Under the pieces are notes generated by a model. That model saw only the letters and a program-made list of their open reading frames with translations. It searched no databases and had not been told where the DNA came from. Shown here in pieces: positions 43,032-51,806 of a stretch of 64,000 bases of DNA. Both the position numbers and the translations under genes were made by a program. This stretch comes from Halostagnicola larsenii XH-48. Lineage in GTDB: Archaea; Halobacteriota; Halobacteria; Halobacteriales; Natrialbaceae. The DNA lies in NCBI RefSeq assembly GCF_000517625.1, contig NZ_CP007055.1, positions 372,001 through 436,000 of the forward strand, written 5' to 3'. How positions within the stretch are numbered: the stretch's first letter is position 1; each line of letters starts with the position of its first letter.

Positions 43032-43191
43032 TCGCGGACCGGTCGATACCACCCGTCGGTCCACTGTCGTCCGCTCGTTTCGCTTTTTCGACCACGTAAC
43101 TCCAGCCCCCCGTTTTGTTCGACCGTTCTCGAGAATCGAGTTCGGCAATCGTCTCGGTATTTCTTTGAGGGATGAATAAGATATCGTGTAT

Positions 43192-45087
43192 ATGAGCGAT
43201 CTGGGCGATTTCACTGACCACACCGTCGACGGCGGCGGCAATTCCGGCGGGACGACGGATTCGGCCAGCGATCCGACGGGTGACGGCGGGACACAGGACG
43301 GGGCCGCCCTCGAGGACGAGTTCGAGGTTCCGGCGGTCGACCCGCAAGGCGAAGACGTCGGAATCGGGACCGTCTGCGTTTCGCAGGGGCTTCGAATCGC
43401 CGAGGACGAAGACGAGACGACGCTCCGAGCCTACATTACGCGGGGGAACCGTTCGGATGTCAGAATCGGAACGTACCTGCTCGCGCCCTATCCGGAGGAG
43501 ACGGGGGCCGTCCCGGGCTCGAACGCTGGAGGCGGCGGGCCACGGGGAACGACAGCGGGCGAAGAGACGCTGTTCTGTCGGATCTCCGGTCTCGAGTACG
43601 CCCAGCAGTACCACGCCGACGACGCAACGGAGATTCACGCGCGGCGGGCGATGCGTCAGGACGGGATCGACGAAGCCGATTTCAAGTTCATCGCCTCGCT
43701 CGAGCCGGTCGCGGTGTTATACGAGGACGATGGGGATCTCAAGCGCCGGATGACTGATCGGGTTCCCAAACCCCAAACGGTAATTCGGACGGCCGACGAC
43801 ACCGAGGAGATCAAAACGGGGCTGAAGATCCCCGAGGACGGGGTCTTTCTGGGTCATCTCTCGGTCGGCGGCGAGAAGGTTCGGACGGCCGCTTCGCCGC
43901 CGACGATCGATTACCCGCTGAAAGACGACTACGAGGCGGGCGACCCGCTCGTCTTTCGGCACTCGCTGGTCGCCGGCGGGACGGGATCGGGGAAAACCCA
44001 CGCCGCGAAGAACGTCCTCCGGCAGTACCTCGCCGAGGATCGGACCTACCCGATGGACGACGGTCGCGAGGTCCAGCCCGCAGTTATCCAGTTCGACCCG
44101 CAGGACGAGTACGCCCAGATGCACGACGACAACCCCGAACTGGACGACGAGTTCGCGCGAGGACTCGAGCGCGAAGGAATCGCCTACGGCGGGGTCGAGG
44201 AGACCACCGCGTTCGTGCCGAAAGTCGGGGACTCCTCGTACGCGGCTGGCCATCACCGCGCCGAACAGGTCGAGTTCACGATTCCGTTCTCGATGGTCCA
44301 CGAGAATCCGTGGCTGGTCGCCGGCAGCGGCCTCAACGACAACCAGTACGGCGCGCTCACGAGCGTCTTGCTCCCGCGTTTTCGAGATCAGTACGGCCAC
44401 GACGGTACGTACCGGGAGTTCACGACGTTCCTCGACGATCCGGCGCTTCGGGAGGAACTCGACGAGTCCGGTCGGGTCCACGAGGCGACCTTCGACGCCG
44501 TCCGCCGGCGCGTCCTCGGCTTCGGCCACGTCTTCGATCAGGACGCCCGGCCGATCACCGACCTGATCCACGAGTTCGTCCGCCCCGGCGGGCTCTCGGT
44601 CGTCCCGACCTACCACATCAACGACTCGAGGGCGACCGAAGCCGTCGTCCTCGCGCTCTCGAGTCTGGTTATCGATCAGAAACTCTCGAACGATCCGACC
44701 TACGATCGGATCAAGGAGACGCCGCTGATTCTGGGGATGGACGAGGCCCACAACTTCCTCACTGACGCCGACAGCGTGCAGGCGGGGAAGGTCATCCGCA
44801 AGTTCACCGAGGCGGCAAAGCAGGGCCGGAAGGAACGGCTCGGCCTCTTTCTCATCACGCAGGACCCACAGGACATCGACGACGCGGTCTTCAAACAGAT
44901 CAACACGACCGTCGTCCTCAACTTAGGCGACGAGGACGCCATCAAGAGCGTGAACATCCCGAGCAACCTCGAGTCGAAAGTCCCCTACATGGAGAAAGGC
45001 CAGATGGTCGTCTACTCGCCGGATAATTCGGAGCCGGTCGAACTAATCGGACTCTCGAAGTGTCTCACGAGACACGGACGGGATTGA
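43192..45087 (+). CDS. herA: HerA-type DNA translocase ATPase
   Basis: A 631-residue hexameric ATPase of the HerA/FtsK family that drives DNA end resection together with NurA. An acidic N-terminal segment precedes a HAS-like barrel (about 50-240), then Walker A GGTGSGKTH (262-270), AVIQFDPQDEY, Walker B LILGMDEAHNFL and sensor LFLITQDPQDID, with the arginine finger region SKVPYMEKGQM near the C-terminus. The TATA-like AATAAGATAT about 20 bases upstream supports ATG 43192. The length fits haloarchaeal HerA-like proteins. nurA is 4.7 kb upstream, same strand. Confidence 0.92.
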   Translation: MSDLGDFTDHTVDGGGNSGGTTDSASDPTGDGGTQDGAALEDEFEVPAVDPQGEDVGIGTVCVSQGLRIAEDEDETTLRAYITRGNRSDVRIGTYLLAPYPEETGAVPGSNAGGGGPRGTTAGEETLFCRISGLEYAQQYHADDATEIHARRAMRQDGIDEADFKFIASLEPVAVLYEDDGDLKRRMTDRVPKPQTVIRTADDTEEIKTGLKIPEDGVFLGHLSVGGEKVRTAASPPTIDYPLKDDYEAGDPLVFRHSLVAGGTGSGKTHAAKNVLRQYLAEDRTYPMDDGREVQPAVIQFDPQDEYAQMHDDNPELDDEFARGLEREGIAYGGVEETTAFVPKVGDSSYAAGHHRAEQVEFTIPFSMVHENPWLVAGSGLNDNQYGALTSVLLPRFRDQYGHDGTYREFTTFLDDPALREELDESGRVHEATFDAVRRRVLGFGHVFDQDARPITDLIHEFVRPGGLSVVPTYHINDSRATEAVVLALSSLVIDQKLSNDPTYDRIKETPLILGMDEAHNFLTDADSVQAGKVIRKFTEAAKQGRKERLGLFLITQDPQDIDDAVFKQINTTVVLNLGDEDAIKSVNIPSNLESKVPYMEKGQMVVYSPDNSEPVELIGLSKCLTRHGRD

Positions 45088-45160: not shown

Positions 45161-45766
45161 TCAACAGAAGTTCTGCGTGGCAAACACCTTATCGTCGTCG
45201 GTGATGTGGATGCCGATTCCCTGATTCTCCCAGTGGTCGGCGAGGAGGTTCTCCCGGTGACCCTGTGAATTCATCCATTGTTCGGCGATACCGTAGCCGA
45301 GTTCCCGCTCGTCTTCGTAGTGTACGATGGTCCCGTCGCCCGTATTGACCGGCGTATCGTACCACGTCTGTGCGATGTTCTCGCCGCCGGTGTACCCGTT
45401 CACGCTGCAGTCGTATCCCGCATCCGCGTACCTGTCAGTGAACGCGTTTCCCTCCGGATCGACGTGGGAGAAGTAGCCGCGCTCGGCCATATCTCCGCTG
45501 TGGTCCTGTGCGATGTCACGGAGTTCGGTGTCGAACTCGAGTTCGTCTGCGCCGTCTGCAGTGCGTTCCTCGTTTACCGCCTCGTGGACGTACTGCTCGA
45601 CGGCCGTTATATTGATCTCGCCGCTGTCGCTGATATCCGACTCTTCCGTTCCGTCCGCGGCCGCACTCGAGGCGGGTACTGCGGCCGCGGTACCGATCAG
45701 ACTCAGGACGAGCATCGTCGTGACTGCCGTGATAACTATCGATTTTGTGGGTCGTTTCATCCGCAT
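45161..45766 (-). CDS. Exported CAP/SCP domain protein
   Basis: A 201-residue secreted protein. A Sec-type signal (SIVITAVTTMLVLSLIGTAAA, about 8-28) and a Ser/Asp-rich stretch precede a CAP domain with VHEAVNEERTADGADEL, AQDHSGDMAERGYFSHV, GGENIAQTW and EQWMNSQGHRENLL. The conserved CAP histidines and glutamate are present. CAP proteins are extracellular with no agreed activity in archaea. The N-terminus could begin at 45766 or 45760; two residues differ. It stands alone and is convergent with herA. Confidence 0.85.
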   Translation of the reverse strand: MRMKRPTKSIVITAVTTMLVLSLIGTAAAVPASSAAADGTEESDISDSGEINITAVEQYVHEAVNEERTADGADELEFDTELRDIAQDHSGDMAERGYFSHVDPEGNAFTDRYADAGYDCSVNGYTGGENIAQTWYDTPVNTGDGTIVHYEDERELGYGIAEQWMNSQGHRENLLADHWENQGIGIHITDDDKVFATQNFC

Positions 45767-45933: not shown

Positions 45934-46563
45934 CTAGCTCGATCCGAGGAGTGTTCGCTCGAAAAATCTCCCGACCTCGCTCGCGATTTCGTCGTGTTTC
46001 CCGAGAAGGAAGTGATCGCCCGCGAGCGCGGTCGTCTCATCGCCGCGCTCGCCCGCGAGTTCGACGATCGGTTCCCAGTCGACGGTGGTGTCGCGCTCGC
46101 CGTAGAGTACGCAAAGCGGGGACTCGAGGCTGCCCATCGCCTCAAGCGCGTCGAGGTCGTCGGCGAGTCGTGCGGTGGGTGCGAGAACGGCGACGGCGTC
46201 GGGACTCGGATCCACGTCCGCCGGGGCGAGCAGCGCCAGCGTCGCGCCGAAACTGTAGCCGAAGACGCCGACTCGGTCGTAGCGTTCGCCCGCCCAGCGG
46301 ATCGCGTTTCGCACGTCTTCGCGCTCGCCGTACCCCTCGTCCCAGCGGCCGTAATCGAAGCGCAGACAGGCGATTCCCGCCTCGAGAAGCGCCTCGCTCA
46401 CCGCGACGAGCCGTTGATCGCTCCGGGAGCCGCCCTGCTGGGGATGGGGCGGACAGGCGACGACAACGGCGTCAGAACTTCCCTCGCCTGCACTTTCGTC
46501 GGTCCGGGGCTCCTCGAGCGTTCCGCGAACGTCGCGACCGCCGGGTACCAGAACGTCGCTCAT
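45934..46563 (-). CDS. Alpha/beta hydrolase (dienelactone hydrolase-like)
   Basis: A 209-residue alpha/beta hydrolase. The nucleophile elbow is GYSFGATLALL, with the oxyanion-region strand VVVACPPHPQQGGSRSDQR typical of the COG2945-type hydrolases, and the late histidine in LAGDHFLLGKHDE. Asp in YGERDTTVDWEP completes the triad. The substrate is unknown. Its ATG overlaps by 4 bp the end of a decayed upstream hydrolase gene, showing that the two were once an operon. Confidence 0.82.
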   Translation of the reverse strand: MSDVLVPGGRDVRGTLEEPRTDESAGEGSSDAVVVACPPHPQQGGSRSDQRLVAVSEALLEAGIACLRFDYGRWDEGYGEREDVRNAIRWAGERYDRVGVFGYSFGATLALLAPADVDPSPDAVAVLAPTARLADDLDALEAMGSLESPLCVLYGERDTTVDWEPIVELAGERGDETTALAGDHFLLGKHDEIASEVGRFFERTLLGSS

Positions 46564-46827: not shown

Positions 46828-47664
46828 ATGGGCATCCTCTCTCGGACCTCGTACGTCATCCGGTCGAAAATCAACTCGGTGCTCAACCGAGCCGAGGACC
46901 CGACCGAAACGCTCGATTATTCCTACGAGCAAATGCGCGACCAACTCCAGGACGTCAAGCGGGGGATCGCGGATCTGACGACGCAGAAAAAGCGCCTCGA
47001 GATGCAGAAACGTCGGCTCGAGGAGAACGTCGAGAAACACAACGAACAGGCTCGAACGGCGGTCCAGCAGGATCGCGAAGACCTCGCTCGACGCGCTCTC
47101 GAGAAGAAAAAGACGAAGATGAACCAGATCGAGGACCTAGAGCGGCAGGTCTCGGAACTCCAGAGCCAGCAAGACCGCCTCATCGAGCAAAAGGACGAAC
47201 TCCAGAACCGGATCGAGGAGTTCCGAACCAAAAAGGAGACGATGAAAGCGCGCTACGAGGCCGCCGAAGCGAGCTCGACGGTCTCGGAGGCGATGACGGC
47301 CACCGGCGAGGAGTTCGAGGACGTCGGACGCGCGATCGAACGCGCCGAAGAACAGACCGAAGATATGGAGGCCCGTTCGGCCGCCATGGACGAACTCCAC
47401 GAAACGGGTGCCTTCGACGACGTGCTCTCCGATAAGGACAACATCGACCGCGAACTCGAGGAGCTCTCGACCGACAGCGGCGTCGAGGCGGAACTCGAGA
47501 CGCTCAAATCCGACGTCGGTACCGACGACGCCGAGACGGACGCGGAACCCGACGAGGACCTCGCAGCCGAGGTCGACGAGGAGGAGATCGAAGACCTCGA
47601 GTCGGAGGTCCCCGACGAAGAAGTCGAGGCCGAACTCGCCGAGCTACAGGACGAAGAGAACTAG
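46828..47664 (+). CDS. PspA/IM30 family protein
   Basis: A 278-residue coiled-coil protein of the phage-shock/IM30/Vipp1 family, which coats and repairs membranes under stress. The start MGILSRTSYVIRSKINSVLN is typical, followed by PTETLDYSYEQMRDQLQDVK and a long Glu/Lys/Gln/Arg coiled coil (about 40-150). The C-terminal 80 residues form an acidic tail (EEEIEDLESEVPDEEVEAEL). In haloarchaea, PspA is upregulated under salt and membrane stress. It diverges from the decayed hydrolase. Confidence 0.9.
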   Translation: MGILSRTSYVIRSKINSVLNRAEDPTETLDYSYEQMRDQLQDVKRGIADLTTQKKRLEMQKRRLEENVEKHNEQARTAVQQDREDLARRALEKKKTKMNQIEDLERQVSELQSQQDRLIEQKDELQNRIEEFRTKKETMKARYEAAEASSTVSEAMTATGEEFEDVGRAIERAEEQTEDMEARSAAMDELHETGAFDDVLSDKDNIDRELEELSTDSGVEAELETLKSDVGTDDAETDAEPDEDLAAEVDEEEIEDLESEVPDEEVEAELAELQDEEN

Positions 47665-47769: not shown

Positions 47770-48264
47770 TTACGCCGGCGTGCCGAGGACGGCGATGTCG
47801 TAGTCGGCGATATCGGCGGGCGGCTTGAGCAGAATGACCAGAAACGACCACGAGTCCCCGCCGCTGAGGTCCCCGGTCGTATCGAAGTATTGGCCGATCT
47901 GGCTCCCGTTTTCGTTGTAGATGCGGACCCGAACTTCGGCGAGTTGGACCCGGTCGGCCCCGTCGTTCTCGACGACCCCCTGTACGGTCGAGCCGAGGTA
48001 GCCGTCCTCGAAGACGAACTCGTGGTCGACGAGCTCGACCGAGTCGAGCGGCGTTACTCCGTCGGTGCTCTCCACTTCGGCGGCGTCCGCTGCGGCGGAC
48101 ATCTCCACCGGCGTCCGCGATTCGCCGTCGATTTCGCCGATCTCGCCGGCCTCGTACTCGGGTTCGTTCCCGATGTCAGCGCCGCTGCATCCGGCCAGGC
48201 TGGCGATGGTCGTCACTCCAAGTGTCGTGAGAACCGCACGTCGACTCCGTCGCTCCGTAGCCAT
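47770..48264 (-). CDS. FxLYD domain lipoprotein, Tat-exported
   Basis: A 164-residue exported protein. RRSRRAVLTTLGVTTIASLAGC is split over residues 5-26: twin-arginine followed by a lipobox. The FxLYD domain (about 85-160) begins VELVDHEFVFEDGYLGSTV and continues with VQGVVENDGADRVQLAEVRV and DTTGDLSGGDSWSFLV. FxLYD domains sit in secreted or cell-wall-associated proteins with no established activity. It is convergent with pspA. Confidence 0.85.
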   Translation of the reverse strand: MATERRSRRAVLTTLGVTTIASLAGCSGADIGNEPEYEAGEIGEIDGESRTPVEMSAAADAAEVESTDGVTPLDSVELVDHEFVFEDGYLGSTVQGVVENDGADRVQLAEVRVRIYNENGSQIGQYFDTTGDLSGGDSWSFLVILLKPPADIADYDIAVLGTPA

Positions 48265-48478: not shown

Positions 48479-48486
48479 ATTATTAT
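48479..48486 (+). promoter_or_regulatory. Probable TATA box of the first triplicated membrane gene
   Basis: ATTATTAT lies about 26 bases before ATG 48509. It is flanked by GGCC on both sides (48475-48478 and 48488-48491), giving a short symmetrical element that may help control expression. Confidence 0.4.
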
Positions 48487-48508: not shown

Positions 48509-49564
48509 ATGGGATCTTCCGAGCGGAACGAATCTCTCGAGTCTTCCGGAACCGAGATCGGTGATCGGACGGGTCCCCTAGCGCGGGTCCGAGAGTGGAT
48601 TCTGGTCGAGGGAGACCGTCTGCTCATTACGATCTTGCTTTCGAGTGTGACGTTTTTCCTCTTGCTCGCGTTGAACGAACTCGAATTCATCGCGTTCGTC
48701 AACAGCGGGTCGATGACGCGACTGGCCAGCGGGATGATCGCGGGGACGTTCTCGCTCGTCACGCTCGTCGTCTCGATCAACCAGCTCATCCTCTCCCAGG
48801 AGTTCGCCACCGCCGGAGAAGTCCGCGACGAACTCGACGGCGTCATGGATTTTCGTCACGACCTCGAGGAGCGAACCGGGGTTCCGGCGAGCCCCGCGGC
48901 ACCGACGAGGATCCTCGAGGTGCTCGTCGAAGCGGTCCGCCGACGAGCAGACGAGCTAGCCGAGGCGGTCGCCGGTCACGAGGATGCCGCGTTCGAAGCC
49001 CGAGTCAATCGGTACGTAGCCAGCGTCCGTGAGAGCACCGACCGGCTCGATGACACGCTCGAGCACACGTCGTCCAACACGTTCAACGCGGTTTCTGCGT
49101 CGCTCCAATACGATAACGGCCGACAGGTGTACGTCGCGAGAACCCTCCGTGGCCGGTACGCAGACGAGCTATCGGACGAGCAACGCGAGGCCGTCGACGA
49201 ACTGATCGGCACGCTCCAGCTGTTCGACGTCGCCCAGGAACACTTCAAGACGACTTACCTTCAGCGAGAGCTGACCCGGTTTTCGCAGTTGACGATCTAC
49301 TCGGGGTTTCCAGCGATCCTGTCGGCGATCATCGTCGCTCTCGTCTACGCCGACTTCGGCGGTGCGAGCATCAACGTCGCGTCCCTTCCGGTCGTCGTCA
49401 GCGCGCTCATCACGGTGGTGATCTCGCCGCTCGCGCTTTTGGTTTCGTACATTCTTCGAACCGCGACCGTGGCGCGCCGGTCGGCGTCGGTCGGACCGAT
49501 GTTGCCCCAGAAAGATCCCGACGACGGATCGTTCGAGGGATCGCTCGAGGAGGGCCAGGAGTGA
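48509..49564 (+). CDS. Uncharacterised four-helix membrane protein, tandem paralogue 1
   Basis: A 351-residue membrane protein, first of three tandem paralogues. Layout: a polar N-terminus (about 1-35), helix LLITILLSSVTFFLLLALN, a second helix ending in the conserved VVSINQLILSQE, a large middle domain (about 115-255), then EHFKTTYLQREL leading into helix IYSGFPAILSAIIVALVY and a last helix ISPLALLVSYILR with RTATVARRSASVGP. The middle domain should lie on one side of the membrane. The IN-SQE and AREHFKT-Y-Q-EL blocks are shared by the three genes. I do not recognise the family. Confidence 0.8.
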   Translation: MGSSERNESLESSGTEIGDRTGPLARVREWILVEGDRLLITILLSSVTFFLLLALNELEFIAFVNSGSMTRLASGMIAGTFSLVTLVVSINQLILSQEFATAGEVRDELDGVMDFRHDLEERTGVPASPAAPTRILEVLVEAVRRRADELAEAVAGHEDAAFEARVNRYVASVRESTDRLDDTLEHTSSNTFNAVSASLQYDNGRQVYVARTLRGRYADELSDEQREAVDELIGTLQLFDVAQEHFKTTYLQRELTRFSQLTIYSGFPAILSAIIVALVYADFGGASINVASLPVVVSALITVVISPLALLVSYILRTATVARRSASVGPMLPQKDPDDGSFEGSLEEGQE

Positions 49565-49640
49565 TGGCCGGACGCCCCGAGATTGCGGTACGACGGTTCT
49601 CGAGCCTTCGGTCGCTTCCACGGGTGGGTTTGCACGCGCT

Positions 49641-50657
49641 ATGAGTCGCGACGAAACCATCGACGAGGAGGTGGCTCGAAGCGATCTGGTCCACGAGCGG
49701 CTTCGCGAATCGCCGATCAAGCGGTGGGTCGTCCTCGACGGGAACCGGTACGTCCTCAGCGCGGTATTCTCGACTGTCGTCTTTCTCAGCTGCGCCGCCA
49801 TCGGTTTCGCCGGGTACGTTCCAGTCACCGACTCCGAGGCCGCGACGACCCTCGTCGCGGCCATCGTCGGCGGAACGCTGCCGTTCATCACGATCGTCCT
49901 CGCGATCAATCAGCTCGTTCTCTCGCAGGAACTCGGCTGGCCGGGCGACCTGCGGGAACGTTTCGACGCGATGGTCTCGTTCCGTCGGGAGGTCGAAACG
50001 GTGACCGAAACGACGGTCAGCCCGGCGGCCCCCGCCGATTTCCTGCAACTGATCGTGGCGTCGGTCGTCGACCACGCCGAAACGCTCGAGTCGACCGCGG
50101 ACACCATAGACGACCCGGAACTCGCCGCGCTTCTCGAGCGGTTCGCCGACGCGGTCACCGCGGAGGGGGAGATCGTTACCGACGCACTGGAAACGGCGAA
50201 CTTCGGGACGTTCGACGCGCTCTCGTCGATCCTCGGTCACTTCAACGGCGCTCACCTCTACGCCGCTCGGACGATCCGAGAAGAGCACGGCTCCGACCTT
50301 CCCGAAACGGGCGCCGACGCGCTCGAGATCCTCGTGGAACTGCTCGGATATCTCGCCGTCGCCAGACAGTCGTTCAAGACGCTGTACATGCAATACGAAC
50401 TCGCCCACCTCTCGAAGCTCCTGTTGGTCGTCGGATTTCCAACGTTGCTCGGGGGTGGCATCTTTCTGATGACCTACGGCTCGATCGTCGACGCAGTCGG
50501 CAATTCAGCCGTGCTCGTAATCGTCGTCAGTACCGTCGTCACGGTCGTGTTCCTCCCGTTTATCGTCCTGCTGGTGTACACGTTCAGAATCGCCTCGATC
50601 GCGAGTCGGACGGCCGACTTCGGCCCGTTCGTCCCGCGAGTCGATTTCGAGGAGTGA
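49641..50657 (+). CDS. Uncharacterised four-helix membrane protein, tandem paralogue 2
   Basis: A 338-residue paralogue of its neighbours, with the same four-helix layout: helix VLSAVFSTVVFLSCAAIGFA, the second helix ending in VLAINQLVLSQE, a middle domain with VSPAAPADFLQLIVASVVD and AARTIREEHG, then ARQSFKTLYMQYEL before VVGFPTLLGGGIFLMTY and the last helix with YTFRIASIASRTADFGP. It begins 76 bp after paralogue 1. The N-terminus (MSRDETIDEEVARSDL) is acidic and probably cytoplasmic. No enzymatic motif is seen. Confidence 0.8.
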   Translation: MSRDETIDEEVARSDLVHERLRESPIKRWVVLDGNRYVLSAVFSTVVFLSCAAIGFAGYVPVTDSEAATTLVAAIVGGTLPFITIVLAINQLVLSQELGWPGDLRERFDAMVSFRREVETVTETTVSPAAPADFLQLIVASVVDHAETLESTADTIDDPELAALLERFADAVTAEGEIVTDALETANFGTFDALSSILGHFNGAHLYAARTIREEHGSDLPETGADALEILVELLGYLAVARQSFKTLYMQYELAHLSKLLLVVGFPTLLGGGIFLMTYGSIVDAVGNSAVLVIVVSTVVTVVFLPFIVLLVYTFRIASIASRTADFGPFVPRVDFEE

Positions 50658-50768
50658 TCCGACCTGTCGACTCCATTGTCGGCGACGAAAGGCGACTGGG
50701 TCGGCTGTCTCGTGCAGCACCGTATCAGTACCTATTTCCACGGCGTCGTTGACTGCCCGAACACACTG

Positions 50769-51806
50769 ATGAGCGACGAGGATTCGCAGCCCAGTGATAC
50801 GATGGCCGAGCGAAGCGTCGACTCGACGTGGAAACACGAACTCCTGTTGAACGCGAATCGATGGCTCGTTACTGCGGGGCTCATGCTGTTCGTCTTCGTC
50901 GGCCTGCTCGCAGTGAGCCAGTTCAGCCCCGTGTCGCTCCGGACGCTTATCCAGAGTACGGATCCCGTCGAGACGCTGTTTCAGGCGCTGGTAACCGCCC
51001 TGATCACCGGCGTCACGCTCGTCGTGACGATCAACTCGCTGGTTCTCTCACAGGAACTCGGGGCCGTCGAGGACCAACGCGAGCGCCTCAAGGGGGCGAT
51101 GGAGTTTCGCAAAGACGTCGAGTCGTCGATCGACGCGCCGGTGAGTCCGCCGGAACCGTCGTCGTTCATGCAGGCGATCATCACCGCTTCCGAAAAGCGC
51201 GCCGAGGACTTCCGAAGCGCCGTCTCCGACAGTCAGGACGAGGACCTTATCGACCGCGTCGACGACTTCGTCAGGAACCTGACGACCCACGCCGATGCCG
51301 TCCGGGACGACCTCGAGGACGCGCAGTTCGGCGCCTACTCCGTCGTGAAGTCGGCGCTCGATTACAACTACTCGTGGAAAATCTTCCGCGCGCGCCGGAT
51401 CAAGCAATCCCACGCCGATTCGTTCACCGACGACGCGCAGGATGCCTACGACGACCTGCTCGAGTCGCTGAAGCTGTTCGGGCTCGCACGCGAGCACTTC
51501 AAGACGCTTTACTTCCAGTGGGAACTCATCAACCTCTCTCGGGCGATGATGTACGTCGCGGTCCCGGCATTGGTCGTCACCGTCTCGATGTTGCTCTTTT
51601 TCGATGCAGGCGTCGCTACCGGTGCCGTCCTGGGTATCGACGTCCTCGTGTGGATCGTCGCCGCGGCGACGACGGTCGCCGTCACGCCGTTCCTGCTCTT
51701 GATCGCGTTTATTCTCCGGATCGCGACGATGGCTAAACGCACGCTCGCGATCGGCCCGTTCATCCTCCGAGAGTCCGGACGCGGCGAGGACATCGACTGG
51801 GAGTGA
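50769..51806 (+). CDS. Uncharacterised four-helix membrane protein, tandem paralogue 3
   Basis: A 345-residue paralogue. Helices: WLVTAGLMLFVFVGLLAVSQ, the second ending VVTINSLVLSQELG, then a middle domain with VSPPEPSSFMQAIITASEKR and RARRIKQSHAD, then AREHFKTLYFQWEL and helix MYVAVPALVVTVSMLLF, and the last helix with LIAFILRIATMAKRTLAIGP. It starts 111 bp after paralogue 2, and a CTATTTCC element about 30-35 bases upstream may be its own promoter. It shares all the block motifs with paralogues 1 and 2. Confidence 0.8.
   Translation: MSDEDSQPSDTMAERSVDSTWKHELLLNANRWLVTAGLMLFVFVGLLAVSQFSPVSLRTLIQSTDPVETLFQALVTALITGVTLVVTINSLVLSQELGAVEDQRERLKGAMEFRKDVESSIDAPVSPPEPSSFMQAIITASEKRAEDFRSAVSDSQDEDLIDRVDDFVRNLTTHADAVRDDLEDAQFGAYSVVKSALDYNYSWKIFRARRIKQSHADSFTDDAQDAYDDLLESLKLFGLAREHFKTLYFQWELINLSRAMMYVAVPALVVTVSMLLFFDAGVATGAVLGIDVLVWIVAAATTVAVTPFLLLIAFILRIATMAKRTLAIGPFILRESGRGEDIDWE

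Follow-up and report, generated by a model that had tools for sequence, protein, structure and literature searches.

Do three neighboring genes for related membrane proteins, lying a short distance behind the only pspA gene of a haloarchaeal genome, belong to a described family, and could their products work with PspA? PspA, a relative of ESCRT-III, is one of the oldest proteins of membrane repair. The genes lie within a window of 64,000 nucleotides (C1:372001-436000) taken from a genome of 4.13 Mb, the closest named relatives of which are Halostagnicola at about 71–86% identity.

In Bacillus subtilis the arrival of PspA at the membrane depends on the integral membrane proteins YdjG/H together with the SPFH protein YdjI (PMC8581546). 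The archaeal Psp networks are described as largely unknown by Popp et al. 2022 (PMC9239133), and work cited in that paper reports that the PspA of Haloferax volcanii responds to salinity. The same authors describe Hvo_2637, a transmembrane protein encoded downstream of H. volcanii pspA, for which they give only weak matches to bPH_4 and EphA2_TM and define no family (PMC9239133). The words haloarchaea and Halobacteria are absent from the main text of Ravi et al. 2024 (PMC11237479). Our literature search, which covered main texts available without subscription, returned no published description of the family analyzed here.

Three tandem genes with a common layout

The three genes, P0001, P0002 and P0003, are consecutive intact open reading frames separated by gaps of 76 bp and 111 bp (Table 1). 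The encoded proteins align from end to end with a pairwise identity of approximately 30% and have a common layout, in which two transmembrane (TM) helices are followed by a helical domain of about 150 residues and then by two further TM helices. AlphaFold models were obtained for P0003 (pLDDT 83.6, pTM 0.76) and P0001 (pLDDT 77.9, pTM 0.71), and both give the same order of helices: TM1, a long TM2, three long and then two short helices, a helix of 57–65 residues that runs into TM3, and finally TM4. The coordinates, the full-length alignment and the two models therefore agree with the preliminary description of three rightward genes sharing one layout, and the gap lengths given there are also correct.

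Table 1. Genes and candidate upstream elements of the locus, in window coordinates
Feature	Position	Strand	Basis or remark
Alpha/beta-hydrolase-like gene	45934..46563	-	Divergent from pspA; present in 38/75 loci
pspA (PspA/IM30 family)	46828..47664	+	PF04012, E=2.2e-32; only copy in the genome; proposed partner
Putative lipoprotein gene, signal ...RRAVLTTLGVTTIASLAGC	47770..48264	-	No Pfam match; neighborhood survey
TATA-like element ATTATTAT	48479..48486	+	30 nt 5' of P0001 start; ATTATT core kept in Halostagnicola
P0001, first family gene	48509..49564	+	351 aa, 4 TM; ORF call, paralogue alignment, tree, model
P0002, second family gene	49641..50657	+	338 aa, 4 TM; ORF call, paralogue alignment, tree
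CTATTTCC element, TATTTCC-type	50732..50744	+	About 35–40 nt 5' of P0003 start
P0003, third family gene	50769..51806	+	345 aa, 4 TM; ORF call, alignment, tree, model

The three sequence blocks noticed earlier (INQLxLSQE, FKTxYxQxEL and RxAxxAxRxxxxGP) are present in all three proteins and rank near the top for conservation in an alignment of 104 homologues, where much of the conservation falls on the last part of TM2 and on the stretches preceding TM3 and following TM4. Eight positions of this alignment are invariant (R31, V85, E96, P130, K245, Y248, P307 and R317, in P0003 numbering). The TM helices are almost free of charged residues, with the invariant P307 lying within TM4 and the charged residues R31, E96, K245, E252, R317 and R324 at the membrane boundaries, while positive charges flank the TM pairs on their N- and C-terminal sides. 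Relative to Halostagnicola the dN/dS values are approximately 0.23 for P0001, 0.15 for P0002 and 0.14 for P0003, so all three genes are kept by purifying selection.

It had been suggested that each gene could have a promoter of its own. This is plausible for P0001 and P0003, which have conserved AT-rich elements about 30–40 nt upstream. The element at ATTATTAT would serve P0001, and the CTATTTCC element, which is conserved in P0003 orthologues while the remaining intergenic DNA is not, is a plausible candidate promoter for P0003 alone. No such element is visible upstream of P0002, and this gene may be transcribed together with P0001.

Comparison with known families

None of the three proteins matches a Pfam, NCBIfam or PADLOC family above the cut-off or a PDB sequence, and the 104 family members have no match in Pfam, NCBIfam or the PDB sequences that would explain them. 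Weak Pfam lines, such as those to YtxH and apolipoprotein, were rejected as scattered helix matches. With no PADLOC families for any of the three, a role in anti-phage defense is without support from that source. The domains of known PSP partners (PspB, PspC, LiaI-LiaF-TM and Toastrack) were also sought in Pfam and NCBIfam and none was found above the cut-off; P0002 gave one line below the threshold for LiaI-LiaF-TM_PspC (E=6.9, 6.9 bits against a cut-off of 27). Neither the P0003 nor the P0001 model had a match at E<=0.001 when searched against the PDB with Foldseek, and a search of one of them against viral models gave none either. Judged from these comparisons, the family consists of predicted four-helix membrane proteins that are unnamed and undescribed so far, in keeping with the earlier view of uncharacterized paralogues. 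Their placement in a well-described family of known function, which the preliminary description had kept in view, did not follow from the profile and database searches.

Distribution and relationships of the copies

Members of the family occur almost only in haloarchaea. When 295 genomes of the phylum were sampled evenly, 44 of the 53 belonging to the same order had 1–7 copies each, and outside the order there was a single other match, in one low-GC archaeon. A genome scan confirmed 257 relatives, nearly all of them Halobacteria by name, from which 75 distinct loci were kept, and among 72,556 plasmid records 65 contain a match, those among the matches listed being haloarchaeal. One close member (L110, G020 C2:322042-323064, E=2e-136), which belongs to an archaeon of 38% GC outside the haloarchaeal order, was probably acquired by horizontal transfer. 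A small transposase-like gene is located about 2 kb from it.

The source genome contains five intact copies and one that is split; this sixth copy (C5:93756-94663; L006, L007) is frameshifted and spans two frames. At least two intact copies occur within a few kb of each other in about 8 of 14 Natrialbaceae genomes, in a sample drawn without regard to similarity to P0001. Tandem copies are therefore common in Natrialbaceae, and the earlier concern that they might be a rare accident of one strain did not come true. At the same tandem locus four Natrialbaceae have a further paralogue in the opposite orientation, on the - strand (L014:7117-8184, L019:7094-8191, L031:7051-8103 and L042:7051-8979).

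A FastTree phylogeny, which carried long-branch warnings, separates the three genes into different clades. The P0001 clade is divergent and comprises 39 rows, all from Natrialbaceae, while the large P0003 clade includes the single pspA-adjacent copies of other haloarchaeal families. P0002 falls in a third, sparse clade shared with Halostagnicola A-GB9-2, Haloterrigena salina, Haladaptatus and archaeon QS_4_70_19, and most Natrialbaceae tandems have a middle gene of another clade. By its placement in the tree P0003 comes closest to the single pspA-operon genes found elsewhere and looks like the core copy, with P0001 and P0002 as divergent extras and an occupant of the middle slot that varies.

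Linkage to pspA and to DUF4177

In the haloarchaeal sample, which was drawn without regard to pspA, this gene is usually present once per genome. Of the 42 genomes that contain both, 27 have their nearest family gene no more than 5 kb from pspA, compared with 0.29 expected by random placement; since the genomes are related, the Poisson value for this linkage overstates their independence. The family thus shares with PSP components the property of being encoded together with a gene of the PspA/IM30 family (PF04012 match). In 23 of the 27 linked genomes the family gene is downstream and on the same strand, and linkage is seen in six of seven taxonomic families. The preliminary description proposed the three genes as a candidate undescribed system. 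The family is indeed undescribed, but the proposed gene set was too narrow, since the upstream pspA had been left unconnected and should be included.

The arrangement differs between lineages. The family gene follows pspA directly, with a gap of 19–102 bp, in Halegenticoccus, Halogeometricum, Haloprofundus, Halorientalis, Halospeciosus, Halarchaeum and Halorarius, which together cover the Haloferacaceae, Haloarculaceae, Natronomonadaceae and Halobacteriaceae, while in Halorussus (Haladaptataceae) the gap is 884 bp. The family genes of Natrialbaceae begin approximately 0.4–3 kb after pspA, often with a small lipoprotein-like gene between them on the other strand. This gene is present at 30 of the 39 Natrialbaceae loci, that of the window among them, and its usual place is after pspA and ahead of the first family gene. 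Across all loci pspA is the commonest neighbor of the family (51/75), and the pair stays together while the gene 3' of it varies (clusters 14, 13, 11 or 6).

The association is not complete. Within the sampled order, pspA occurs with no family gene in eight genomes and a family gene with no pspA in two, so the two are separable. In 15 of the 42 genomes that contain both, they are distant from each other or on separate contigs, and most of these genomes belong to a single genus of one family. A hydrolase gene upstream and MLE and DUF1611 genes downstream also recur near pspA, which suggests that part of the linkage may be older, inherited synteny, and there are genomes that retain the pspA region but have the family gene elsewhere. 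Further upstream in the window are genes for a HerA-like ATPase (43186-45087), which recurs at 17 of 39 Natrialbaceae loci, and for a secreted CAP-domain protein (45161-45766).

A second context involves DUF4177. The two other intact copies of the source genome (C1:2501514-2502727 and C2:361591-362789; L004 and L005) each lie directly behind a DUF4177 gene, and the genome has no further DUF4177 gene at E<=0.01. The same pair occurs on Haladaptatus plasmids, and in the search table DUF4177 is listed under the match in Halomontanus, Natronorubrum, Natronosalvus and Natrarchaeobaculum. Taking these pairs together with the pspA pairs, the family is stably paired with at least two kinds of gene.

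A possible membrane partner of PspA

Because the family sits right behind pspA across haloarchaea, its members are probably the missing membrane partners of PspA, and we give roughly even chances to the specific reading that they act as membrane anchors or sensors for the ESCRT-III-like PspA of haloarchaea. This reading is supported by the proximity to pspA, the same-strand adjacency and the constancy of the pair despite a varying downstream gene, as well as by a predicted membrane span with a large polar helical domain, which would suit an anchor for a peripheral protein. The bacterial precedent of YdjG/H with YdjI (PMC8581546) and the salinity response of H. volcanii PspA point the same way, while the separability of the genes, the unlinked genomes, the synteny of the hydrolase, MLE and DUF1611 genes and the DUF4177-paired copies count against it.

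As a partner of PspA, the family protein would sit as an oligomer in the plasma membrane with its N and C termini and the helical domain toward the cytoplasm, as the positive charges flanking the TM pairs suggest. The TM bundle may sense changes in tension, lipid or ion gradient, and the cytoplasmic domain would hold or release PspA, allowing it to coat and seal a membrane that is stressed osmotically or otherwise. The role of ancestral, general partner would fall to P0003, and P0001 and P0002 would be diverged copies that tune the response. A broader proposal, which we put forward only tentatively, is a haloarchaeal PspA stress system in which a dedicated family of four-TM receptors anchors and regulates PspA, with expansion in Natrialbaceae to two to four diverged tandem receptors by pspA and a parallel branch in which PspA is exchanged for a DUF4177 protein.

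The linkage to pspA could also be ancestral regional synteny with no shared function, the family having an unrelated job in the membrane and duplicating and moving freely, plasmids included. The recurrence of the hydrolase, MLE and DUF1611 genes in the same region, the genomes in which only the pspA region stays in place, and the many copies on megaplasmids (the 65 plasmid records), some paired with DUF4177, fit this explanation. We nevertheless regard it as unlikely, as co-directional adjacency at 19–102 bp in four families, with varied neighbors downstream, is more than loose synteny usually gives. It is also unlikely, in our estimate, that the proteins instead form oligomeric channels or pores that pass, for instance, ions or osmolytes and are gated by the central helical bundle; the linkage to pspA would then reflect shared induction by osmotic stress with no direct contact. 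Such a role would agree with the succession of two TM helices, a domain and two TM helices, with the long helices that enter the membrane from the domain, and with the invariant proline of TM4 and the charged residues at the membrane boundary. Bestrophins also have four TM helices and a cytoplasmic helical part, in a broadly similar order. The near absence of charged residues from the TM helices speaks against a channel, as does the lack of a PDB match at E<=0.001 for either model, the bestrophin KpBest appearing in the P0001 list only at rank 23 (probability 0.10, TM-score 0.12). Neither bestrophin (PF01062) nor bestrophin-like (PF14023) proteins gave a Pfam or fold match to the family, and a search for both in 120 genomes of the phylum found neither, the control genomes giving no match either.

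An origin as a distant branch of DUF2254, with a helical domain inserted between TM2 and TM3, appears highly improbable. A faint likeness to DUF2254 at the second helix had been noted in the preliminary description, and hhalign aligned the two at TM2 only, over 27–28 columns (P 4e-4 to 1e-3; reversed control 0.14–0.5). The TM1–TM2 spacing is similar, and with the middle domain cut out the alignment grew to 110 columns (P 9e-4; reversed control 0.19). A match spanning the full protein was rejected, as the 110 columns are reached only after this excision. The hhalign probability is however just 20–37%, PF10011 (cut-off 28.8 bits) appears neither in the matches of the three proteins nor among the families most often matched by the 104 members, and the whole genome contains zero matches to it at E<=0.01. 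DUF2254 proteins also have their four TM helices together in one block, followed by a large C-terminal soluble domain of another kind. The faint local match at TM2 therefore leaves membership unsupported, and since DUF2254 is without a known function, kinship would leave the job of the family unexplained.

Returning to the reading of the family as a PspA partner, its members resemble PspB/PspC of Proteobacteria, YdjG/YdjH of Bacillus, PspM/PspN of Actinobacteria and LiaI/LiaF in being pspA-adjacent integral membrane proteins with a plausible role as anchor or sensor. They have no significant match to these proteins, from which they differ in TM layout, in the large helical middle domain, and in being haloarchaeal and often present in tandem copies. 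If the family is a conserved haloarchaeal partner it would add one more lineage-specific, unrelated membrane protein to the PspA core, with a mechanism that could be tested in a relative amenable to genetics, for example Haloferax volcanii. By its published description Hvo_2637 of that species may well be a member of the family, being likewise the transmembrane product of a pspA-operon gene in a haloarchaeon.
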